Below, one piece after another: positions 100 to 10,908 of a DNA stretch of 64,000 bases. The stretch's first letter is position 1. The number at the start of each line of letters is the position of its first letter. A program made the position numbers and the translations under genes. Location of the stretch: assembly GCF_015644665.1 (NCBI RefSeq), contig NZ_JADOBQ010000002.1, positions 558,001 to 622,000 on the forward strand, given 5' to 3'. A model generated the notes under the pieces. It was given only the letters and a program-made list of their open reading frames with translations. It ran no database searches and was not told the origin of the DNA. Source of the stretch: Roseobacter sp. MH60115 (GTDB taxonomy: Bacteria > Pseudomonadota > Alphaproteobacteria > Rhodobacterales > Rhodobacteraceae).

Positions 100-241
100 A
101 AGGTGCAGGATGTCTAGGGTTCCGCCGTCATTCACGGGTCTGGTCCGAGAGATATCGCTGTTCGGTCAATCCCGGACAGTACACGGCGGGGCAAAATCCC
201 GGGAGGCTACTGCGCTGGTTTGACCCGCGCTCCGTTTTGCC
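100..241 (+). promoter_or_regulatory. Guanidine-I (ykkC class I) riboswitch
   Basis: The leader before the first importer gene carries the conserved guanidine-I aptamer blocks in the right order: CTAGGGTTCCG near 114-124, CTGGTCCGAGAG near 140-151, and ACACGG near 181-186 followed by AAAATCCCGGGAGG to 206. These are the hallmark stretches of the class that binds guanidinium and switches on export or degradation genes. Downstream, GGCAAAA (190-196), inside the aptamer 3' part, is complementary to TTTTGCC (235-241). This alternative pairing may be part of the expression platform. Identification of the aptamer comes from remembered consensus; the switching mechanism is inference. Confidence 0.87.
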
Positions 242-286
242 ACCCACGCGGTCATTCCATTCGAAAAAAACAGATGGGGACCGAAG

Positions 287-1330
287 ATGAAAAAACTGAC
301 AGTGACCGCGATGGCGCTCTGCCTGAGCACGAGCGCCTTTGCGCAGGAAAAGACCGAGTTCAAAGTGGCGTGGTCGATCTATGTGGGGTGGATGCCCTGG
401 GGCTATCTCGAAGACAGCGGCATCATGGACAAATGGGCCGACAAATATGGGATCGATGTCGAGATCGTGCAGATCAACGATTATGTCGAGTCGATCAATC
501 AGTATACTGCGGGCCAATTCGATGGCGTGTCAGCAACCAATATGGACACGCTGTCGATCCCTTCGGGCGGTGGCGTCGATACCACGGCGCTGATCGTCGG
601 AGACTATTCCAACGGCAATGACGCGGTGATCCTGAAGGGCGATGGCGATCTGACCAGCCTGAAGGGCATGCCGGTGAACCTGGTTGAACTCTCCGTGTCG
701 CACTACCTGCTGGCGCGTGGGCTCGACAGCGTTGGGCTCTCAGAAGCGGATCTGGGCGGTGTCATAAACACCTCCGATGCTGATATGATCGCCGCCTTCG
801 CCACCGATGATGTGCAAGCGGTGGTGACGTGGAACCCGCTTGTCTCCTCCATCCTTGAGGACCCGAAGGCGACGAAGCTTTTTGACAGTTCGGACATCGC
901 CGGCGAGATTATCGACCTGATGGTGGTGAACACCGAAACGCTGGAGGCCAACCCTGATTTCGGCAAGGCGATGGTGGGCGCCTGGTACGAGCTCATGGGC
1001 CTGATGGCGGCAGGCGACGAAGGCGTGCTGAGCGCCATGGCCGACGCGTCGGGAACCGATCTGGCGGGCTATCAGGCACAGCTGGCCTCCACCGAGATGT
1101 TCTATGATCCTGAAGCGGCCGTCGCGTTCACCGAAAGCGATGCGTTGCCCGAGACGATGGAAAACGTCGCGGGATTCCTTTTTGACAAGGGTATCCTGGG
1201 CGAGGGCGCACCTTCGGCCGATTTTGTGGGTGTTGCCTACCCCGATGGATCGATCACGGGTGACGTCAACAACGTGCAGTTCCGCTTCGACACGACCTAT
1301 ATGCAGATGGCCGCCGACGGCAGCCTGTGA
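287..1330 (+). CDS. ABC transporter substrate-binding protein (guanidine-type importer)
   Basis: A 347-residue periplasmic binding protein of the NMT1/nitrate-taurine type. Residues 1-20 form a clear Sec signal peptide ending AFA before QEK. It is the first gene behind the guanidine-I riboswitch and is followed by a matching permease and ATPase, so the probable ligand is guanidine or a guanidine-related amine. The ligand is inferred from the riboswitch and the downstream ureohydrolase; the fold assignment rests on overall similarity (VAWSIYVGWMPWG start, GDYSNGNDAV region). Confidence 0.85.
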   Translation: MKKLTVTAMALCLSTSAFAQEKTEFKVAWSIYVGWMPWGYLEDSGIMDKWADKYGIDVEIVQINDYVESINQYTAGQFDGVSATNMDTLSIPSGGGVDTTALIVGDYSNGNDAVILKGDGDLTSLKGMPVNLVELSVSHYLLARGLDSVGLSEADLGGVINTSDADMIAAFATDDVQAVVTWNPLVSSILEDPKATKLFDSSDIAGEIIDLMVVNTETLEANPDFGKAMVGAWYELMGLMAAGDEGVLSAMADASGTDLAGYQAQLASTEMFYDPEAAVAFTESDALPETMENVAGFLFDKGILGEGAPSADFVGVAYPDGSITGDVNNVQFRFDTTYMQMAADGSL

Positions 1331-1370
1331 TGGAAAGGAGCCGCCGCACCCCGGTGTGGCGGCACGTGTC

Positions 1371-2183
1371 ATGCGCCTGATCAATCTCAAACCTGGCCCT
1401 GCCCTCACGGCCTTTTTGACGCTGCTGCCGTTTCTGGCCGTGTTCATCGCTTATGCAATCGGTTCGGAAATCCGCCTGGCCGAGAACCCCTCGGACAAGC
1501 TGCTGCCCGCGCCGGGTAAAATCTGGGACACGATGGTGAGCCTGACCACGCAAGGTGATCGCCGGACCGGGCGCATCCTGTTCTGGCATGATACATGGGC
1601 CAGTCTGAAGCGGCTTGGTCTAGGGATCGTGATCTCATCGCTTTTCGGCCTTGTCATTGGCCTGATGATTGGACTTTTACCACTGGTCCGCAGTGCGCTT
1701 GCGCAGTTTGTCGCCATCCTGTCGATGATCCCACCGTTGGCGTTACTGCCCATCCTGTTCATTGTGTTTGGCCTTGGGGAGCTGTCCAAGGTGGTGCTGA
1801 TTGTCGTCGGCACCTTGCCGTTCATGATCCGCGACCTCAGCCAGCGGACCCTGGAGATCCCCGAAGAGCTGCTGGTCAAGGCGCAAACGCTGGGCGCATC
1901 CAGTTGGGTCATCGCGATACGTGTCGCTCTTCCGCAGGTGATGCCACGTCTGATACAGGCTGTGCGGCTGTCGCTCGGCCCGGCATGGCTGTTTCTGATC
2001 GCGGCAGAAGCGATCGCCTCCGACCTCGGCCTCGGCTACCGGATTTTCCTCGTGCGCCGCTACCTCGCGATGGATGTGATCCTGACCTATGTCCTCTGGA
2101 TCACGCTGCTGGCCTTTGTCATCGATTGGAGCCTGCGTTGGGCCTCCCGCCGTTTCTTCCCCTGGGCGAAGGAGGGGTTATGA
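1371..2183 (+). CDS. ABC transporter permease (guanidine-type importer)
   Basis: A 270-residue BPD-type inner-membrane permease with about six hydrophobic segments. The cytoplasmic coupling loop is visible as EELLVKAQTLGASSW, matching the EAA motif of SsuC/NrtB-like permeases. The ATG at 1371 is the first plausible start after the binding-protein gene. The ribosome-binding site is weak, suggesting translation from the upstream gene. Its stop overlaps the start of the ATPase gene by four bases (ATGA), so the importer genes are coupled. Confidence 0.88.
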   Translation: MRLINLKPGPALTAFLTLLPFLAVFIAYAIGSEIRLAENPSDKLLPAPGKIWDTMVSLTTQGDRRTGRILFWHDTWASLKRLGLGIVISSLFGLVIGLMIGLLPLVRSALAQFVAILSMIPPLALLPILFIVFGLGELSKVVLIVVGTLPFMIRDLSQRTLEIPEELLVKAQTLGASSWVIAIRVALPQVMPRLIQAVRLSLGPAWLFLIAAEAIASDLGLGYRIFLVRRYLAMDVILTYVLWITLLAFVIDWSLRWASRRFFPWAKEGL

Positions 2184-2950
2184 GCTTTGTGACGGTCGAG
2201 GATGTGTTCCAGAGCTATGATGACCGACCCATTCTGGAACGGGTGAATGTCGAGGTCGATGAGGGCGAGTTTGCGGCCATTGTCGGTGCCTCCGGCTGCG
2301 GCAAGTCCACCTTCCTGCGGCTGCTGCTGGCGCAAGAGCGGCCCAGCCGGGGTAGGGTGCGCATTGCCGATGCGCCCCCGGCCAAAGAACCGGGCCTGGA
2401 CCGCGGGATCGTCTTTCAGAAGTATTCGGTCTTTCCCCATATGACCGTCCGCGACAACATCGTGGCGGGGGAAAGCCTGCGGTTGGGATGGGGGCGGTTT
2501 TTTGGCCAGAAATCAAAGGCCGCCAGGGTACGCGCGGATGAAACGCTGGCCCGGACCGGGCTGGATCATGTGGCCCACCACTATCCCGCGACGCTGTCGG
2601 GTGGGATGCAACAACGCCTCGCCATTGGGCAGGCGCTGGCAGCCAAGCCGCGCGTGCTGCTGCTCGATGAACCCTTTGGCGCGCTTGATCCCGGCACGCG
2701 CCTGTCGATGCACGATTTCCTGCAAGAGCTGCGGGCGGAGACGGGCATGACCGTGTTCATGGTGACCCATGATCTGGAAGAAGCCTTCAAGCTCGGCGAC
2801 CGCGTGCTTGTCTTCGACAAACCCCGCTGGGACCCGCACGACCCGTCCCGCTATGGCGCGACAATCACTTACGACTTTGATGCCCGCGATGGCGGCATCC
2901 CATTCCAAAAACTTCAGGAGGATACGCATGTTTTGCAGGCCAGCAGATAG
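2180..2950 (+). CDS. ABC transporter ATP-binding protein (guanidine-type importer)
   Basis: A 256-residue ATPase of the SsuB/NrtD/TauB group. It has Walker A GASGCGKST near residue 36, signature LSGGMQQR and Walker B VLLLDEPFGALD. GGAGG sits just ahead of the ATG, which overlaps the permease stop. It energises the importer encoded by the two preceding genes. Its 3' end overlaps the chosen start of the ureohydrolase gene by 23 bases, another sign of one operon. Confidence 0.9.
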   Translation: MSFVTVEDVFQSYDDRPILERVNVEVDEGEFAAIVGASGCGKSTFLRLLLAQERPSRGRVRIADAPPAKEPGLDRGIVFQKYSVFPHMTVRDNIVAGESLRLGWGRFFGQKSKAARVRADETLARTGLDHVAHHYPATLSGGMQQRLAIGQALAAKPRVLLLDEPFGALDPGTRLSMHDFLQELRAETGMTVFMVTHDLEEAFKLGDRVLVFDKPRWDPHDPSRYGATITYDFDARDGGIPFQKLQEDTHVLQASR

Positions 2951-4172
2951 GTCTCGTTCACACCACCCCGGTGACCACCGCCGCACCGAGGCGCGGCATC
3001 ATCACCCCGACCTGACCAAGCTGCGGGGCTGGAAGGCCATGCAGGCCGAGGGCGATCTGCCCGAGACCGGCTGGGAGCAGGAGAAGAAATGGGCCCTGCG
3101 CATGGGGCTCACAGGGGCCGACAGCATCGAGGACAAATCCATCCCCACCTTCGCGCGCGGCGAACTGCCGCATTACGCAGGCATCAACACCTTCCTCAAG
3201 GCGCCTTACGCCGAGGACGTGACCGAGGTGAAGGACTACGACGCCACCGTACTGGGCATCCCCTTTGACGGCGGCACCACCTACCGGGCGGGCACGCGGT
3301 TTGGCCCGCAAGGCGTCCGCAAGATCTCCGCGCTCTATACGCCCTACAACTACGAGATGGGCGTGGATCTGCGCGAGCAGATGACGCTCTGCGATGCGGG
3401 GGACGTCTTCACGATCCCCGCCAACATCGAAAAGACATTCGACCAGATCAGCCGGGCGGTCAGCCATGTGGCCTCCTCCGGCTCGCTGCCAATCATGATT
3501 GGCGGGGATCATTCCATCGGCTTTCCCTGCGTGCGCGGGATCGCGGAGTGCACGTCGAAGAAAATCGGCATCGTGCACTTTGACCGCCATGCGGACATTC
3601 AGGAAAAAGATCTGGACGAGCGCATGCACACCACGCCGTGGTTCCACTCAACGCTGCTGCCGAATGTGCCCGCCAAGAACCTCGTGCAGGTGGGCATCGG
3701 CGGCTGGCAGGTCCCGCGCGAGGCGGTAAAGGTGGCCCGCGAGCGGGAGACCAATATCATCACCATGGGTGACATGGAAAAGATGGGCGTCGACAAGACC
3801 GCCGAGATGGCGCTGGAGATGGCCTGGGACGGGGTCGATATGGTCTATATGTCCTTCGACATCGACAGCATCGATTGCGGCTTCGTGCCCGGCACCGGAT
3901 GGCCGGAACCGGGGGGGTTCCTGCCGCGCGAGGCACTGGCGCTGGCCTCAAAAGTCGCCGCCGAAGGCATCTGCGGCATGGAGCTGGTCGAGGTCGCTCC
4001 GCCCTATGACCAGTCGGAGATTACCGCACTCATGGGCACGCGGGTGATCGTGGATGTGCTGGGCTCGCTCGTGGCCTCCGGCAATATGGGCAAGCACAAG
4101 CGGCACATCGACAAGCCCGTGGAAATCCCCCACGGCGACTTCACAGGAAAGCGGTGGTCCAATGCCACATGA
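2928..4172 (+). CDS. Ureohydrolase-family enzyme, probable guanidine hydrolase (GdmH-like)
   Basis: A 414-residue arginase/agmatinase superfamily metalloenzyme. Metal ligands are visible in GGDHS (192-196), HFDRHAD (217-223) and SFDIDSID (310-317), followed by GTGWPEPGG. Canonical agmatinases read HFDAHxD and GTGTPE; the W in this position and the length near 400 residues fit the Ni-dependent guanidine hydrolase group known from cyanobacteria (Sll1077/GdmH), which makes urea and ammonia. The guanidine-I riboswitch and importer upstream support this. I chose the ATG at 2928 because AGGAGG precedes it at the right spacing; that start adds a His-rich N-terminus (HH, HHH within residues 12-26). 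A shorter form from 3040 is possible. Substrate is inferred, not proven. Confidence 0.82.
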   Translation: MFCRPADRSRSHHPGDHRRTEARHHHPDLTKLRGWKAMQAEGDLPETGWEQEKKWALRMGLTGADSIEDKSIPTFARGELPHYAGINTFLKAPYAEDVTEVKDYDATVLGIPFDGGTTYRAGTRFGPQGVRKISALYTPYNYEMGVDLREQMTLCDAGDVFTIPANIEKTFDQISRAVSHVASSGSLPIMIGGDHSIGFPCVRGIAECTSKKIGIVHFDRHADIQEKDLDERMHTTPWFHSTLLPNVPAKNLVQVGIGGWQVPREAVKVARERETNIITMGDMEKMGVDKTAEMALEMAWDGVDMVYMSFDIDSIDCGFVPGTGWPEPGGFLPREALALASKVAAEGICGMELVEVAPPYDQSEITALMGTRVIVDVLGSLVASGNMGKHKRHIDKPVEIPHGDFTGKRWSNAT

Positions 4173-4590
4173 TATCGTGAACGGCCACATCGGCCACAAC
4201 CATGACCACCCCGACCACCTGCACAGCCATATGAATGAGGCCGATGGTGCGGCGGAATTGCAAGTGCTGACGGAGCAGTTCATCGATGGGTTCATCGCCG
4301 CCAAGGACAAGATGTCCTATCTGCGCATCGCGGGCGTGCCGCTGGAAATCGACGCGCCCGGGGGTGGGCCGTCGATGAAGCTGGTGGATGTGAAGCTGAC
4401 CACCGAATGGCAGGTGGGCACGGCCTCCCCGTCCTTTGGATCGCGCGAGCTGAGCTATCTGCCCTATCCCGGCGAAATGGTCACCGAACGCACCAATATG
4501 GGGCTGATCTACGTATCGCTTGACGCGAAACATGTCACCGATCTGCGCAGCTTTCTGCAGGAGCATCCTGCGGTCTCGGAGGTGTCATGA
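4162..4590 (+). CDS. Histidine-rich protein of the guanidine operon, unknown function
   Basis: A 142-residue protein I cannot assign to a family. The N-terminus is rich in His and Asp (GHNHDHPDHLHSHM, residues about 11-24), a typical metal-binding stretch like those of Ni or Zn chaperones. The rest looks like a compact soluble alpha/beta domain (LRIAGVPLEIDAPGGGPS, then a beta-rich part). The start overlaps the ureohydrolase end by 11 bases, so the two are translationally coupled. Cyanobacterial guanidine hydrolase needs HypA/HypB-like nickel chaperones; none is encoded here, so this protein might deliver or store nickel. That role is inference. Confidence 0.8.
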   Translation: MPHDIVNGHIGHNHDHPDHLHSHMNEADGAAELQVLTEQFIDGFIAAKDKMSYLRIAGVPLEIDAPGGGPSMKLVDVKLTTEWQVGTASPSFGSRELSYLPYPGEMVTERTNMGLIYVSLDAKHVTDLRSFLQEHPAVSEVS

Positions 4591-4745
4591 GACGTTTGAG
4601 CGTATTGGTCATGCCGTGCGCAACACCCGCCTATGCCCATCATGAGGTGGTTGTCGCGACGTCCATGCTGCCCCTGGCCGGGGGTCTTGCCGCAATCGCG
4701 GCGGCGGGTCTGATTGCCCTGCGGCGGTGGTTGCGCAATCGGTGA
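4587..4745 (+). CDS. Small membrane or secreted protein of the guanidine operon
   Basis: A 52-residue ORF that starts in the ATGA overlap with the histidine-rich gene. Residues 1-17 read as a signal peptide ending TPAYA, giving a mature N-terminus HHEVV. One further hydrophobic segment (LAGGLAAIAAAGLIAL) is followed by a basic tail (RRWLRNR), typical of a single-pass inner-membrane peptide. Function unknown. The exposed HH pair could bind metal, as in small accessory proteins of nickel enzymes, but this is a guess. Confidence 0.62.
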   Translation: MRRLSVLVMPCATPAYAHHEVVVATSMLPLAGGLAAIAAAGLIALRRWLRNR

Positions 4746-4776: not shown

Positions 4777-6660
4777 CTACCAATCCTTGTCGGTCAGGCC
4801 CAGCTTTTGCAGCCGTGAATAAAGTGTCGTCGGTCGCACACCCAGCAGTGCGGCCGCGCCACCGTTGCCTGACACGCGACCCCCCGCCTCTTTCATGCAG
4901 GCAATCGTATTGGCGACCCGAATTTGTTCGATGTCGGCCTCTGTCAGCAGTGTTGAGGAGTTGCGCACAACCGGGGCCGTGGGATTTTGGATGTCCACGA
5001 CCAGTTTGCCCGCCCGCGAGACAATCGCCCCCCGTTCAATCACATTCGCCAGCTCCCGCACGTTTCCCGGCCAGTCGTATTTCTGCAGTTTCTGCATCAT
5101 TCCTTCAGTCACAACCGGGACCGCGCGACCCAGCCGCTTGCTGGCAAGTTTCAGGAAATGCGCCACCAGCGGCGGGATGTCCTCCACGCGCTCGCGCAGG
5201 GGGCGGCAATGGATCGGGAACACATTCAGAAACAGAACGAGATCCTGCCGTAAGCGACCGGCCTGAACCTCTCGCTCCACATTGCGGCTGGTCGAGGCCA
5301 GAACACGCAGTTCAATCGCGCGCATCCGGTCTTCGCCAAGCCGGACAACGGCGCGGCGCTGCAACGCTTCGAGCAGACGGCCCTGATGCTCCAACGGGAT
5401 GTCCGCGACTTCATCGATGAACAAGGTGCCGCCATGGGCCAGTTCGATTTTGCCCGGCTTATCGCGCAGGGCCCCGTTGAAGGCCCCGCGCACATGGCCA
5501 AAGAGCTCGCTTTCGATCATTTCGGGGGCGACGGCCCCGCCTTTGAAGTGGATCATGGGCCGGCGCTTGCGACTGCTGTCATTGTGTATCGCGGAGGCGA
5601 CAAGCGATTTGCCCGAGCCGCTCTCACCGGTGATCAGCACATTGGCCTCTGTGCGCGACACCAGCTCGATCTGGGTGATGACCTGACGGATCGCGGGTGA
5701 TTGCCCGATGATGTCGTGGTGCGCCCGCTCGATGTTGATCGCTTCCTGAAGATAGGCGTTCTCCTGCTCCAGCCGGTCGCGCAGGGCGGCAATTTCATCC
5801 ATGGCCGCATGCAGCTTACGCTCGTTTTCCGACCTCTCCGTAATGTCGCGAAAGATCACCACGGCCCCCACCAGGATCTGGCCTTCGTAAATCGGGGTAG
5901 AGACATATTCGACGCGGATCGGCTTGTTGTCCTTGCGCCAGAACACCTCGTCCTCGATGCGGTTGACCTGCTCGAACCGGAACGACTGGTAGATCGGACA
6001 TTCATGTGACGGGTAGACCTCCCCGTTCAGACGGTGATGGTGGATCATCTGGTGAATGTCGCGGCCAATCAGGTCTTCGGTTGTCCATCCCAGCATTTCC
6101 TGTGCTGCGCGATTGACGAAGGTTGTCTTGCCTTCGGCGTTCACGCCATAGATGCCTTCGCCCGCGGCATTGAGGATCAGCTGGTTCTGCCGCTCAAGCT
6201 CTGAAAAGAACGCCTGCACCCGTTGCCATTCCAAAATGCCGCTTCTGTACATTTGGGCGGTGGCGGTTTCTTCGGCACGTTGGTCCATCGTCGTCAGGTC
6301 CGTGATGTTCAGCAAAAGGGCATCTCCCCTTTCGGTCGTCACGATGCGCCCGTTCAATTCGCAAATCAGCGGTGCTTCTTCTCGCGCGGTCAGCGCGATC
6401 TTGCGCGTCCAGGCGCTCCCCCGGTGCAGCACCTCATCGATGAAAACGACGAAGTCGGCGAGGTCGCTTTTTACCCGCCCTGCAAAATGCGTGCCGACCA
6501 GAGCGCTGTTTCCGAAGGTGCGGACCGCCTCGGAGGTGGCGGCGAGGATGACGTCCGTTTGCAGATCAATCAAAAGCGTTGGGCCAAAGGCGCCAGCCAG
6601 GAAAGAATCGAAAGAGTGATCAGTGTGAAGCATCCAAGAAGTCAGCAGCCTTTGCACCAC
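4777..6660 (-). CDS. Sigma-54-dependent activator with PAS domain
   Basis: A 627-residue enhancer-binding protein: an N-terminal sensor segment, a PAS domain around residues 155-285, a short coiled coil, an AAA+ sigma-54 interaction domain with Walker A GESGSGKS (about 346-353), Walker B LFIDEVAD, and a C-terminal Fis-type helix-turn-helix ending in GGAAALLGVRPTTLYSRLQK. The loop that contacts sigma-54 is GAFNGA (about 391-396) instead of the usual GAFTGA. No receiver domain is present. It lies between the guanidine operon and the divergent cyanate operon and probably activates the latter. The start could also be nine codons further in, at 6633. Confidence 0.88.
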   Translation of the reverse strand: MVQRLLTSWMLHTDHSFDSFLAGAFGPTLLIDLQTDVILAATSEAVRTFGNSALVGTHFAGRVKSDLADFVVFIDEVLHRGSAWTRKIALTAREEAPLICELNGRIVTTERGDALLLNITDLTTMDQRAEETATAQMYRSGILEWQRVQAFFSELERQNQLILNAAGEGIYGVNAEGKTTFVNRAAQEMLGWTTEDLIGRDIHQMIHHHRLNGEVYPSHECPIYQSFRFEQVNRIEDEVFWRKDNKPIRVEYVSTPIYEGQILVGAVVIFRDITERSENERKLHAAMDEIAALRDRLEQENAYLQEAINIERAHHDIIGQSPAIRQVITQIELVSRTEANVLITGESGSGKSLVASAIHNDSSRKRRPMIHFKGGAVAPEMIESELFGHVRGAFNGALRDKPGKIELAHGGTLFIDEVADIPLEHQGRLLEALQRRAVVRLGEDRMRAIELRVLASTSRNVEREVQAGRLRQDLVLFLNVFPIHCRPLRERVEDIPPLVAHFLKLASKRLGRAVPVVTEGMMQKLQKYDWPGNVRELANVIERGAIVSRAGKLVVDIQNPTAPVVRNSSTLLTEADIEQIRVANTIACMKEAGGRVSGNGGAAALLGVRPTTLYSRLQKLGLTDKDW

Positions 6661-6675
6661 TCGCGCAACACGACA

Positions 6676-6756
6676 TTTCGTAATTTACGAAAAACCGTAA
6701 AATCAATCACACTCGAACCGGCAGTATCGCCCTGATTTTAAGCGTAAATTGCGAAA
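6676..6756. promoter_or_regulatory. Repeated operator-like sites between activator and cyn operon
   Basis: The divergent intergenic region holds a 17-bp palindrome TTTCGTAATTTACGAAA (6676-6692) and a second related site with core CGTAAATTGCG (6743-6753), 64 bp away. Both fit CGTAAWTTRCG. A half-site CGTAAAA follows at 6696-6702. Paired dyads upstream of a gene are typical upstream activating sites for Fis-type sigma-54 activators. I could not find a convincing GG-N10-GC promoter beside them. Confidence 0.5.
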
Positions 6757-6835
6757 ACGCTTTTTCTGACAGCACCTATTCTTTTGCATTCTTCCTTCCG
6801 TCAGCATGGAGAAAACCAGCGACGGAGAGAGTGCC

Positions 6836-8209
6836 ATGACAGTGAAATCCCTAAGCAACCCGTATTCCTCCGAAACCGATTTGCGGCACGGGCGCGGATG
6901 CTCTTGTGACAGCTGCACGGGGTTAGAGGATCTGGCGACATCCGGCATGTCCGCCGACGACATGCTCGAACAGGCCGTTGAAAGCGCCATCGTGCGGTCC
7001 GTCTTTGGCCAGAGTGATGTCAGCCGCCGGTCCTTCATGGGCATGGTAGGCGGTGCGACAGCCGCCGCTGCGCTGGCGTCGGTCTTTCCGCTGAACGAAG
7101 CAAAGGCCGCCATCCTCGATAATCTCGGCCCGCCGGAGAAAACCGACCTGAACATCGGTTTCGTGCCGATCACCTGCGCCACGCCGATCATCATGGCGCA
7201 GCCTCTGGGATTCTACGAACGCTACGGCCTGAACGCGCAGGTCATCAAGACAGCTGGCTGGGCCGTTGCCCGCGACAAGTCGCTATCGGGGGAATATGAC
7301 GCAAGCCACATGCTGACGCCGATGCCCCTGGCGATGACACTGGGGGCGGGGTCTGTCGCTGAACCCTACATCATGCCCGCCGTCGAGAACATCAACGGTC
7401 AGGCCATCGTGCTGTCGAACGAACATCTCGACAAACGGGACCCGAAGCAATGGAAAGGCTTCACCTTCGGGGTGCCGTTTGAATACTCCATGCACAACTT
7501 CCTGCTGCGCTACTACGTGGCGGAATTCGGGCTGGACCCCGACGTCGACATTCAGATCCGCGTGGTGCCACCCCCTGAGATGGTCGCAAACCTGCGGGCC
7601 GGGAACCTCGATGGCTACCTGTCTCCGGACCCCTTCAACCAGCGTGCCGTCTTTGAAGGCATCGGGTTCATCCACATCCTGACCAAGGAGATTTGGGAAG
7701 GACATCCATGCTGTGCCTTCGCCGCGCCTCTGTCTTTTGCGACTGAACTGCCGAATACCTATGGTGCCCTGCTGAAATCGATCATCGACGCGACCCAATA
7801 TGCGTCAAACCCGGACAATCGCGTTGAGATATCGGAGGCGATTGCCCCGACGAACTACCTCAACCAGCCGGTTACCGTCATCCAGCAGGTGCTGACAGGC
7901 ACCTATGCCGATGGCCTGGGCGAAGTGCAGCGGGTGCCGGACCGGATCGATTTCGATCCATTCCCCTGGCATTCGATGGGGGTCTGGATCCTGACGCAGA
8001 TGAAGCGGTGGGGCTATATTGAGGGCGATGTCGATTACAAGGGCGTGGCCGAACAGGTCTACCTCGCCGCGGACGCGAAGAAGGTGATGGAAGACTTGGG
8101 ATACGACGCTCCGGACGTCACCTACAAATCGCATACGATCATGGGCAAGACCTTTGATCCCGCCACACCAGAGGCCTACGTCGACAGCTTCGCAATCAAG
8201 ACAAACTGA
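6836..8209 (+). CDS. Tat-exported substrate-binding protein, CmpA/NrtA type (cyanate importer)
   Basis: A 457-residue binding protein of the NrtA/CmpA/CynA family. A twin-arginine signal (SRRSFMG, Arg64-Arg65) precedes a hydrophobic stretch ending in EAKAA. Before it lies an unusually long N-region with a cysteine cluster CSCDSC (Cys22, 24, 27). The ATG at 6836 follows GGAGAG; an upstream ATG at 6806 has no good ribosome-binding site. It heads an operon that ends in cyanase, so cyanate is the likely ligand, parallel to cynABDS of cyanobacteria; bicarbonate or nitrate cannot be excluded by eye. Confidence 0.85.
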   Translation: MTVKSLSNPYSSETDLRHGRGCSCDSCTGLEDLATSGMSADDMLEQAVESAIVRSVFGQSDVSRRSFMGMVGGATAAAALASVFPLNEAKAAILDNLGPPEKTDLNIGFVPITCATPIIMAQPLGFYERYGLNAQVIKTAGWAVARDKSLSGEYDASHMLTPMPLAMTLGAGSVAEPYIMPAVENINGQAIVLSNEHLDKRDPKQWKGFTFGVPFEYSMHNFLLRYYVAEFGLDPDVDIQIRVVPPPEMVANLRAGNLDGYLSPDPFNQRAVFEGIGFIHILTKEIWEGHPCCAFAAPLSFATELPNTYGALLKSIIDATQYASNPDNRVEISEAIAPTNYLNQPVTVIQQVLTGTYADGLGEVQRVPDRIDFDPFPWHSMGVWILTQMKRWGYIEGDVDYKGVAEQVYLAADAKKVMEDLGYDAPDVTYKSHTIMGKTFDPATPEAYVDSFAIKTN

Positions 8210-9042
8210 TGGAGAAGCTGTCGGAGAACAAACGGGCGGCGTTGCTGTCGGTCCTCCTGTTGCTGGTTGGGCTTTTTGTATGGGAACTGTCGATCCCTGC
8301 ACAAAAAGCCGTGGGCGAGTTGACCGAATACGAACTGCTCACAGGTGGAGGGCAGCCCAAGGCGGGGGTGCCGCCACCCAGCCAGGTGCTGGCCAAGGCA
8401 TGGGAACAGCTGTCGAACCCGTTCTATGATGCGGGCCCCAATGACAAGGGTATCGGTATCCAGATCGGTTATTCGATCTACCGCGTTCTCACGGGCTATT
8501 TTCTGGCCGCGCTGATTGCCATTCCGCTTGGGTTCCTCATCGGGATGTCGCGGGTGGCCTACAAGGCACTGAACCCGTTCATTCAGGTCCTGCGCCCGAT
8601 ATCGCCGCTCGCCTGGATGCCCCTGGCGCTGTTCATCATTCAGGACAGCGAGGCCTCGGCGATCTTCGTGATCTTCATCTGCTCGATCTGGCCGATGCTG
8701 ATCAACACCGCCTTTGGCGTGGCCGCTGTGCGCGAAGACTGGGTCAATGTGGCCCGGACCCATGAATTGGGAGCGGTCAAGACGGCCTTTACCGTGATCC
8801 TGCCCGCCGCCGCCCCCACCATCGTGACGGGGATGCGCATATCCATCGGCATCGCCTGGCTGGTGATCGTGGCGGCAGAGATGTTGGTCGGGGGCACGGG
8901 CATTGGCTACTACGTCTGGAACGAGTGGAACAATCTCGATCTCACCTCGGTCATCTTTTCCATCCTCATGATTGGTGTCGTGGGCATGTTGCTGGACGCT
9001 ATGTTCGGCTTCCTGCAGCGCCGCGTCACCTACATCGAATAA
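8209..9042 (+). CDS. ABC transporter permease, NrtB/CynB type
   Basis: A 277-residue inner-membrane permease of the nitrate/bicarbonate/cyanate group. An N-terminal membrane segment is followed by a periplasmic stretch and about five further helices; the coupling loop is NVARTHELGAVKTAF. Its start overlaps the stop of the binding-protein gene (TGATG), showing tight coupling. It forms the channel for the same substrate, probably cyanate. Confidence 0.87.
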   Translation: MEKLSENKRAALLSVLLLLVGLFVWELSIPAQKAVGELTEYELLTGGGQPKAGVPPPSQVLAKAWEQLSNPFYDAGPNDKGIGIQIGYSIYRVLTGYFLAALIAIPLGFLIGMSRVAYKALNPFIQVLRPISPLAWMPLALFIIQDSEASAIFVIFICSIWPMLINTAFGVAAVREDWVNVARTHELGAVKTAFTVILPAAAPTIVTGMRISIGIAWLVIVAAEMLVGGTGIGYYVWNEWNNLDLTSVIFSILMIGVVGMLLDAMFGFLQRRVTYIE

Positions 9043-9053
9043 AGAGAAACCCT

Positions 9054-9959
9054 ATGAAACCGTTCCTGAGCATCGACAACCTGACACAGCGCTTTCCCGA
9101 TGGCACTGGCGGAGAGTTGACCGTCTTCGAAAACGCCAGTTTTGGGGTTGAGAAAGGCGAATTTGTCGTGATCCTCGGTCATTCGGGCTGTGGCAAATCG
9201 ACGATCATGAACATCCTCGCGGGTCTTGCAGAGCCGACAAGCGGCGTGGTCACCATGGACGGCTACGAGGTGCGCGGGCCCAGTCTTGATCGCGGTGTGG
9301 TGTTTCAGAACTACTCCCTGCTGCCGTGGCTCTCGACTCTGAAGAACGTGACCTTCGGCGTGGCTGCCCGACACCCCGAATGGTCCAGGGCGGAGGTCGC
9401 GGCGCATGCCACCAAGTTTCTGGCGATGGTCGGACTTGAGGGCGATGTCATCCACCGCAAGCCAAGCCAATTGTCGGGCGGCATGCGGCAACGTGTGTCG
9501 ATTGCGCGCGCCTTTGCCAATCACCCCAAGCTCTTGCTGCTGGACGAGCCCTTTGGCGCGCTCGACGCGCTGACGCGCGGGACCATCCAGGACGAGCTGC
9601 TCAAGATCTGGGGGCAGATGGAGCAGACCGTCTTCATGATCACCCACGACATCGATGAGGCGATCCTGCTGGCGGACCGCATCCTGCTGATGACAAACGG
9701 CCCCTTTGCGCGCGTGGCGGAAAGCGTGGAGATCACCATCCCCCGTCCTCGCAACCGGACCGAGATCATCGAGCATCCCAACTACTACGCGATCCGCAAC
9801 CATCTGGTGCAGTTCCTGGGCAAGCGCTCCAAGGAGATGTCCGGACAACCGACGGAGGCGGGCAAGACAAACAGGCCAGTGCCCGTGCGGATCGACAAGT
9901 CCGAGCCCGCAGACGATCCCGAAGACAGACGACCTGCCTTGAGCGCAGTGAATGGTTAA
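9054..9959 (+). CDS. ABC transporter ATP-binding protein, NrtD/CynD type
   Basis: A 301-residue ATPase with Walker A GHSGCGKST, signature LSGGMRQR and Walker B LLLLDEPFGALDAL. It is preceded by AAAGAGAAA and begins 11 bases after the permease stop. The C-terminal 40 residues are polar and extend beyond the usual domain. It powers the importer of the two genes before it; cyanase starts 22 bases downstream. Confidence 0.88.
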   Translation: MKPFLSIDNLTQRFPDGTGGELTVFENASFGVEKGEFVVILGHSGCGKSTIMNILAGLAEPTSGVVTMDGYEVRGPSLDRGVVFQNYSLLPWLSTLKNVTFGVAARHPEWSRAEVAAHATKFLAMVGLEGDVIHRKPSQLSGGMRQRVSIARAFANHPKLLLLDEPFGALDALTRGTIQDELLKIWGQMEQTVFMITHDIDEAILLADRILLMTNGPFARVAESVEITIPRPRNRTEIIEHPNYYAIRNHLVQFLGKRSKEMSGQPTEAGKTNRPVPVRIDKSEPADDPEDRRPALSAVNG

Positions 9960-9981
9960 GACGACTATGAAAGGCCCCGGA

Positions 9982-10434
9982 ATGACCGAGATGATGACGA
10001 AAGAAGACGTAACCGCGATGATCCTCTCCGCCAAAAGGCAGGCTGGTCTGACGTGGGAAGACATCGCCGCCAAAATCGGCATGTCCCCGGTCTGGACCCA
10101 TTCCGCCGCCATGGGCATGAACGCTTTTCCGGCGGATAAGGCAAAGCTGATGGTCAGCGTGATGGGGCTGCCGCAGGAGGCCGAGAGCGTGCTGGCCGAA
10201 AGCCCGACCAAGATCTGGGAGCAGGCGGTGCCAACCGATCCTTGTATCTACCGGTTTTATGAAATCGTAGGGGTCTACGGACCGACGTTGAAAGCGCTGA
10301 TCCAGGAGAAATTTGGCGATGGCATCATGTCCGCCATCGACTTTGACATGTCCGTGACGCGGATCGAAAACCCGAAGGGCGACCGTGTGAAGGTCGAGAT
10401 GTCGGGCAAGTATCTTGGGTACAACAGCTGGTAG
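9982..10434 (+). CDS. cynS: Cyanate hydratase (cyanase)
   Basis: A 150-residue cyanase, which converts cyanate and bicarbonate to carbamate and CO2, giving ammonia. The N-terminal helical domain resembles a helix-turn-helix (WEDIAAKIGMS), and the C-terminal catalytic domain shows PTDPCIYRFYEIVGVYG with the active Arg and Glu, then FGDGIMSAI with the active Ser, and the GKYLGY tail. The length matches the about 156-residue E. coli enzyme. AAGG eight bases ahead favours the ATG at 9982; upstream ATGs at 9952 and 9967 would overlap or nearly touch the ATPase gene. Confidence 0.96.
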   Translation: MTEMMTKEDVTAMILSAKRQAGLTWEDIAAKIGMSPVWTHSAAMGMNAFPADKAKLMVSVMGLPQEAESVLAESPTKIWEQAVPTDPCIYRFYEIVGVYGPTLKALIQEKFGDGIMSAIDFDMSVTRIENPKGDRVKVEMSGKYLGYNSW

Positions 10435-10443
10435 GGGATCGCG

Positions 10444-10908
10444 ATGACACGCATGCCAGTCCCGCCGTTTTCCTATGACGATGCGGTCACAAAGGTCCGC
10501 ATGGCGGAAGACGCCTGGAACAGTCGCGACCCGGACAAGGTGGCGCTGGCCTATACGCCCGACACACGATGGCGCAATCGCTCCCAATTCATCAACGGAC
10601 GCGATGAGGTCCGGCAATTCCTCGCAGCGAAATGGGAAGCCGAACAGGAGTACCGTCTGATCAAGGAGATCTGGGCGCAGGGTGACAATCGCATCGCCGT
10701 GCGGTTTTGCTATGAATACCGCGATGCAACCGGGCAGTGGTTTCGCGCCCATGGCAATGAGAACTGGGAGTTCGACACGGGCGGCTACATGGCTGCACGG
10801 CATGCCTCGATCAACGACGTGGCGATCCGTGAATCTGAGCGACTGTTCCGCTGGGATCAGGGACCGCGTCCCGCCGCGCATCCGGGATTGTCTGACTTGG
10901 GCCTCTGA
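10444..10908 (+). CDS. DUF1348 / NTF2-like protein
   Basis: A 154-residue single-domain protein of the nuclear-transport-factor-2-like fold, recognised as DUF1348 by [20 protein letters not shown], the [13 protein letters not shown] segment and the [12 protein letters not shown] motif. It starts ten bases after cynS and is likely co-transcribed. The family has no settled biochemical role. Its position suggests a function linked to cyanate or nitrogen metabolism, which is inference. Confidence 0.88.

Follow-up and report, generated by a model that had tools for sequence, protein, structure and literature searches.

The 64,000-nucleotide stretch of Roseobacter sp. MH60115 DNA analysed in the present work (contig NZ_JADOBQ010000002.1, positions 558,001 to 622,000; referred to below as the window) carries close to its beginning a guanidine-utilisation operon in which ORF5 (open reading frame 5), a small histidine-rich protein, probably serves the guanidine hydrolase GdmH as its nickel accessory factor in the place of HypA and HypB. 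A guanidine-I riboswitch combined with an importer and GdmH is an operon type that has already been described; the new part is ORF5 at the operon end. The features are as follows.

103..207, + strand: guanidine-I riboswitch aptamer (RF00442, 83.8 bits, E 1.8e-13)
201..286, + strand: candidate expression platform (fold and conservation in related leaders)
287..1330, + strand: substrate-binding protein (SBP) of an ATP-binding cassette (ABC) importer, predicted to be for guanidine (TIGR03427, 520.9 bits)
1371..2183, + strand: ABC importer permease (PF00528, BPD_transp_1, 70.6 bits)
2180..2950, + strand: ABC importer ATPase (PF00005, ABC_tran, 112.9 bits)
2928..4172, + strand: GdmH-type guanidine hydrolase (545.4 bits to 7esr, 538.6 bits to 9fek; specificity residues)
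4162..4590, + strand: ORF5, histidine-rich, proposed GdmH nickel accessory factor (accompanies GdmH consistently at the alphaproteobacterial loci)
4587..4745, + strand: ORF6, tiny membrane-type protein (layout and offset shared by 34 of 81 loci)

The enzyme, the importer and the operon layout

The initial annotation had placed a guanidine-I aptamer before an importer and a ureohydrolase, and this was confirmed by the RF00442 match at 103–207, by the SBP, which exceeds the TIGR03427 equivalog cut-off (520.9 compared with 333.9 bits), and by the enzyme, which matches the Arginase family (253.1 bits). The nearest sequences of solved structure to the enzyme are 7esr/7oi1 (545.4 bits), which we take to be the Synechocystis guanidine hydrolase, and 9fek (538.6 bits, with 226 of 358 aligned columns identical), presumably that of Nitrospira inopinata. 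These PDB entries all carry the title 'agmatinase 2'. Among the best 60 of 70 matches, the next solved relative was proclavaminate amidinohydrolase at 169.6 bits, and the agmatinase equivalog TIGR01230 stayed slightly under its cut-off (170.8 compared with 174.3 bits). The enzyme thus groups by sequence with the guanidine hydrolases and not with the agmatinases, as had been proposed, and the GTGWPEPGG motif on which the proposal leaned is real, its Trp being residue 325. Together with Thr118, His234 and Glu355, Trp325 corresponds to the four residues named for the N. inopinata guanidinase (Thr105, His222, Trp313 and Glu344; PMC11410670); of the 11 numbering offsets tried, exactly one matched all four to 9fek, and it was adopted. 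In the 128 loci where GdmH could be aligned, some genomes being repeated, residue 325 was Trp in 124, Thr in two and uncovered in two.

The predicted pathway of import and direct hydrolysis without a carboxylase is supported by sequence genome-wide, in agreement with the initial annotation. No urea carboxylase over cut-off was found in the genome (completeness 99.96%), the best partial match reaching 553 bits, where the cut-off is 1303.85, and being confined to approximately the first 440 of 1201 model positions, as biotin carboxylases would give, and a urease alpha subunit is encoded elsewhere (961.5 bits). Guanidine is the probable substrate of the importer because of the riboswitch and because transporters of the same kind stand beside GdmH in other organisms (PMC8390497 and PMC10119275).

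The riboswitch, the importer genes, gdmH, ORF5 and ORF6 all lie on the same strand, and from the permease onward neighbouring genes overlap, by 4 to 23 bases provided that the adopted gdmH start is correct, a layout like that of a translationally coupled operon. The gdmH start codon is uncertain, as one annotated relative's gene begins 37 codons later. One relative (L174) keeps the riboswitch, GdmH and ORF5, and a homologue of the SBP or permease was not found there.

ORF5 accompanies GdmH across genomes

Among 198 genomes of the same family, GdmH was detected in 27 (E up to 1e-80, the own genome included) and the ORF5 profile in 28 (E up to 1e-5), namely all 27 GdmH genomes and G159. The latter is the only one of the 171 genomes without GdmH to hold any ORF5 sequence, and what it holds is a broken remnant. 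Its ORF5 fragments lie in shifted frames (L182, about 6290–6480), and no GdmH match was obtained in the 7 kb fetched. When the neighbourhoods of 25 relatives were compared, ORF5 followed GdmH in 24, and in the remaining one (L035) the contig ends inside GdmH. A scan of a species-genome collection gave 184 stretches encoding ORF5 relatives, the best 80 of which were kept. In 79 of these 80 named loci GdmH lay directly upstream on the same strand, separated by −7 to 384 nt, and the lone exception (L074) begins at a contig end; the scan patterns came from GdmH-linked copies and the nearest 80 were taken, so that distant ORF5s may occur elsewhere.

The linkage was also observed outside the family. 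A class sample comprised 385 genomes, and GdmH was matched in 12 of them in addition to the own genome. Ten of these 12 are full enzymes of the Trp type (Trp at the site of residue 325) from other alphaproteobacterial families, and an ORF5 homologue adjoins every one of them, with E values from 2.8e-66 to 2.3e-12. A guanidine-I match was present in six of the ten loci, those without it being L150, L151 (a stretch that starts at a contig end), L153 and L156. A possible GdmH–ORF5 fusion in L156 was rejected, as the reading frames are those of two separate genes and evidence for a fusion is nil. A phylum sample added five more loci, two of them from the own family, all with ORF5 and the riboswitch, and both of the Sinorhizobium fredii plasmids fetched (of five matched) carry the two as well.

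ORF5 was not found at the other two class-sample loci, L157, which is cut off before the Trp site, and L158. The L158 enzyme (6483–7925; 54% identity) has Thr at the Trp site and a His-rich internal insertion, and its locus has no ORF5 and no riboswitch match; L164, an actinobacterial locus, is of the Thr type too, without ORF5 or a riboswitch match. This Thr-type sister enzyme is likely to act on a different substrate. L161, on a Rubrobacter indicoceani plasmid, has a guanidine-I riboswitch ahead of GdmH, and after the enzyme come genes for a sodium:solute symporter, a formamidase and urease. An ABC importer is missing from the annotated genes of that stretch, and neither a HypA/HypB match by tblastn nor ORF5 was found.

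Within the family, two loci (L051 and L052) hold GdmH and ORF5 among proteins that, by names read from their translations, are Rieske-type dioxygenases and SDR (short-chain dehydrogenase/reductase) proteins; read in the same way, L051 additionally encodes a polysaccharide deacetylase-like protein and L052 a urea-carboxylase-associated-like protein. Their SBP is only about 45% alike and neither has a guanidine-I match. L109 shares this divergent importer and likewise lacks a riboswitch match.

Sequence and structure of ORF5

ORF5 comprises 142 residues with a histidine-rich tail, and its gene overlaps the end of gdmH by 11 nt. ORF5 matched no Pfam or NCBIfam family above cut-off and no sequence in the PDB; with the threshold relaxed to E up to 1, a single unrelated sub-threshold Pfam match appeared and still no NCBIfam family, so that ORF5 itself does not match the HypA/HypB families. 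In 80 copies the protein starts with MPHD in 75 and with MAPHD, MAHD or MPPD in the other five. The tail of the 75 MPHD copies varies from 38 to 78 residues and contains 5–27 His. The conserved core of approximately 100 residues has, among 61 aligned copies, invariant F40, G43, D49-K50, P60, K73-L74, D76-V77, G86, P90 and F92-G93, among others, and is the constant part of the protein, because three homologues from outside are nearly without a His tail. In the structure model the core is predicted with confidence and the tail is disordered. The ratio of non-synonymous to synonymous substitution rates (dN/dS) was 0.05–0.11 for ORF5 in five of six comparisons and 0.04 for GdmH in five of six, the sixth being saturated in each case; ORF5 is under strong purifying selection.

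ORF6 and HupE

ORF6 has 52 residues, with a signal-like segment, a His-His pair and one hydrophobic segment, and shares an ATGA overlap with the ORF5 stop. An ORF6-like frame of 50–69 residues, with a signal-like N-terminus, His and a single hydrophobic segment and starting one base before the ORF5 stop, was found in 34 of 81 loci (the 80 named loci plus the window) and in 5 of 3132 control stretches, by a filter that was written after examples had been viewed; three further loci (L060, L075 and L123) resemble the layout, fail the filter and were not counted. DUF6732 (PF20506) was matched by seven of 16 ORF6 members (best 1.6e-6), the window's own copy remaining unmatched. dN/dS for ORF6 was 0.20–0.30 in three comparisons and saturated in three.

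At the place of ORF6, L159 and L160 (both S. fredii) and L175 have a HupE/UreJ protein after ORF5 (HupE_UreJ, 153–169 bits). A HupE motif scan of 129 loci, which could miss divergent permeases, returned these three and three unrelated frames. We considered ORF6 to be a shortened HupE and rejected this, as PF04955 was not among the 17 families matched by any of the 16 members at E up to 10; the claim is therefore restricted to a similar layout and position of ORF6 and HupE.

Nickel loading of GdmH

GdmH is a nickel enzyme, which proteins of the HypA/HypB type activate in cyanobacteria. The Synechocystis operon encodes the maturation proteins GhaA and GhaB of this type (PMC12930504 and PMC8390497). 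In the own genome (G000), HypA (PF01155) had no match at E 0.001 or better, and HypB (TIGR00073) had five matches, none over cut-off. A tblastn search of 129 GdmH/ORF5 loci with one HypA and one HypB, which recovered four control loci, returned no HypA match and one 28%-identical HypB match (L153), probably UreG because a urease-type RNA lies nearby; the 129 loci are not independent genomes, as some were fetched twice under different names.

From these observations we infer the following course. Guanidine would bind the aptamer and turn the operon on, most likely by freeing the Shine–Dalgarno site of the first gene, as the leader suggests; the ABC importer would take up guanidine, GdmH would hydrolyse it to urea and ammonium, and the urease encoded elsewhere in the genome would finish the release of nitrogen. 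The ORF5 core may dock on GdmH with the His-rich tail holding nickel, and ORF6, or the HupE permease in some relatives, may handle nickel at the membrane. Although we regard a nickel accessory role of ORF5 in this operon as probable, the wider proposal that ORF5 is a new GdmH-dedicated nickel-insertion family, replacing HypA/HypB throughout the alphaproteobacteria with a miniature ORF6 in the place of HupE, is put forward tentatively, at slightly less than even chances.

Several results weigh against a nickel accessory role of ORF5 in this pathway. Four actinobacterial loci, one of them with the riboswitch and three of the Trp type, have no ORF5 within about 8 kb, so that the enzyme evidently manages without it. 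The ORF5 homologues of L149, L151 and L154 retain at most a short run of His, so that nickel binding through the tail is not a conserved requirement. Structure searches with the ORF5 model retrieved no known nickel chaperone and gave no convincing structural match. HypA and HypB are both present elsewhere, over cut-off, in seven of the 27 family GdmH genomes, and each of the 20 GdmH genomes that lack a true HypB has weak matches to the HypB model. In the own genome the best of these is located roughly 2 kb away from the gene for urease alpha and is therefore probably UreG; urease chaperones might thus load GdmH. For the related metformin hydrolase, one group reported that chaperone co-expression left the activity of cell extracts unchanged, although a mutant lacking the chaperone failed to grow on metformin (PMC11271267). 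As to the importer, the NCBI name of the TIGR03427 family is 'putative urea'.

These points leave room for a different account, which we consider unlikely, in which GdmH is loaded by urease chaperones or free nickel and ORF5 acts as a structural or regulatory partner of the enzyme with no role in metal handling. The weak hits of the HypB model in every GdmH genome that lacks HypB, which are probably UreG, agree with it, as does an ORF5 core that is conserved beside a variable and sometimes short tail; furthermore, the comammox guanidinase produced in E. coli was active without known chaperones, but its authors suspect incomplete metal loading of the recombinant enzyme (PMC11410670). The strong His-rich tail in the 75 sequences measured and the HupE nickel permeases after ORF5 in three loci also argue against a partner without a metal role. 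A tail of low complexity and variable length would equally suit a protective nickel store or buffer, co-regulated with a nickel enzyme and inserting no metal. However, a buffer would be expected beside other nickel enzymes too, whereas intact ORF5 without GdmH occurred in none of the 198 genomes, a count made with a profile built from GdmH-linked copies only, and we hold this account to be improbable.

That the enzyme is an agmatinase or another guanidino-ureohydrolase rather than a guanidine hydrolase is very hard to credit. Its plasmid relatives are annotated 'agmatinase family protein', but the scores of 545 compared with 170 bits, the specificity residues, the riboswitch and the agmatinase model below its cut-off all speak against an agmatinase.

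Riboswitch and leader

The RF00442 match scored 83.8 bits, above the gathering score of 63, is full-length (model positions 1–107 of 107) and falls within 100–210, where the initial annotation had expected a covariance-model hit. It is the sole Rfam match at gathering threshold within the 64 kb window and the single RF00442 match in the whole 4.76 Mb genome. At the same threshold, 22 of 25 related family loci have a guanidine-I match, the exceptions being L049, L051 and L052.

In the predicted fold of the leader, one hairpin extends across the 3′ end of the aptamer (within 201–286), a second (249–283) pairs the Shine–Dalgarno region and a third, alternative pairing would exclude both. We extracted 69 leaders and picked 23 that share the window's type, in which the sequence between the end of the aptamer and the start codon hardly varies. 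Each leader pair was formed in 18–23 of the 23 rows, and the changes seen were one-sided, with no two-sided changes. The hairpins are conserved and too invariant for covariation to prove them. Across all 69 leaders, the first-hairpin pattern fits 25 and the Shine–Dalgarno hairpin pattern 22, many of the others having a different layout. The folding energy of the leader is ordinary (z −0.44). Control by a terminator was rejected, as a terminator-like site is absent from 208–290. The leader suggests translational control, on the basis of conservation and not of covariation.

Neighbouring genes

Next after ORF6, on the opposite strand, is a PAS/sigma-54 activator (4777–6660), which probably belongs with the neighbouring transporter–cyanase cluster. 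In 4777–10908 of the window this regulator faces an NMT1-type ABC transporter, behind which come CynS (cyanase, 196.9 bits) and a protein of DUF1348. Together they are likely a cyanate-use cluster adjoining the guanidine operon.

Comparison with known systems

The papers listed in the literature searches showed neither a GdmH accessory protein other than those of the HypA/HypB types nor an account of the present operon in alphaproteobacteria, although the founding GdmH paper (Nature 2022) may describe such operons. A guanidine-I riboswitch has been predicted in the alphaproteobacterium Magnetospirillum, with the downstream gene unnamed in the part of the source available (PMC9549626). As a dedicated partner of GdmH, ORF5 could represent a nickel accessory family additional to HypAB and the urease chaperones, and it makes the question of GdmH nickel loading testable via simple co-expression. 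It could also aid the making of active GdmH for biotechnology, and the ORF5/GdmH operon marks many species of the Roseobacter group as likely guanidine users.

The initial annotation had regarded the arrangement as unusual, a view that does not hold: a guanidine-I riboswitch with an importer and GdmH has been described for Synechocystis and marine Synechococcus (PMC8390497, PMC10119275 and PMC12186494). What differs from the described operons is ORF5/ORF6 replacing HypA/HypB, which that annotation missed; ORF5 (4162–4590) and ORF6 (4587–4745) both lie inside the region it covered and are not mentioned in its text.

The operons for metformin or dimethylguanidine hydrolase share a nickel ureohydrolase and have HupE downstream, but, unlike the window, contain two ureohydrolase genes and HypA/HypB (PMC11399263). 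The comammox Nitrospira operon shares the guanidine-I riboswitch, the guanidinase and the lack of nickel chaperone genes of known type, but has an APC permease instead of an ABC importer, and an ORF5-like gene goes unmentioned in the available part of its description (PMC11410670). The marine Synechococcus/Prochlorococcus cluster (ykkC, speB2, hypAB and a Tau-like ABC transporter) has in common with the window the marine setting, the riboswitch (reported for Synechococcus), the importer and the guanidinase, whereas it carries hypA/hypB (PMC10119275). In Synechocystis, a guanidine-I riboswitch, an ABC importer, GdmH and nickel-delivery proteins are combined, according to a review (PMC12186494). 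That operon (sll1077, sll1080–sll1082 and GhaA/GhaB) shares with the window the riboswitch class, an SsuA/NrtD-type importer, GdmH and urea as the product, but where it has GhaA/GhaB (PMC12930504 and PMC8390497) the window operon has ORF5 and ORF6.

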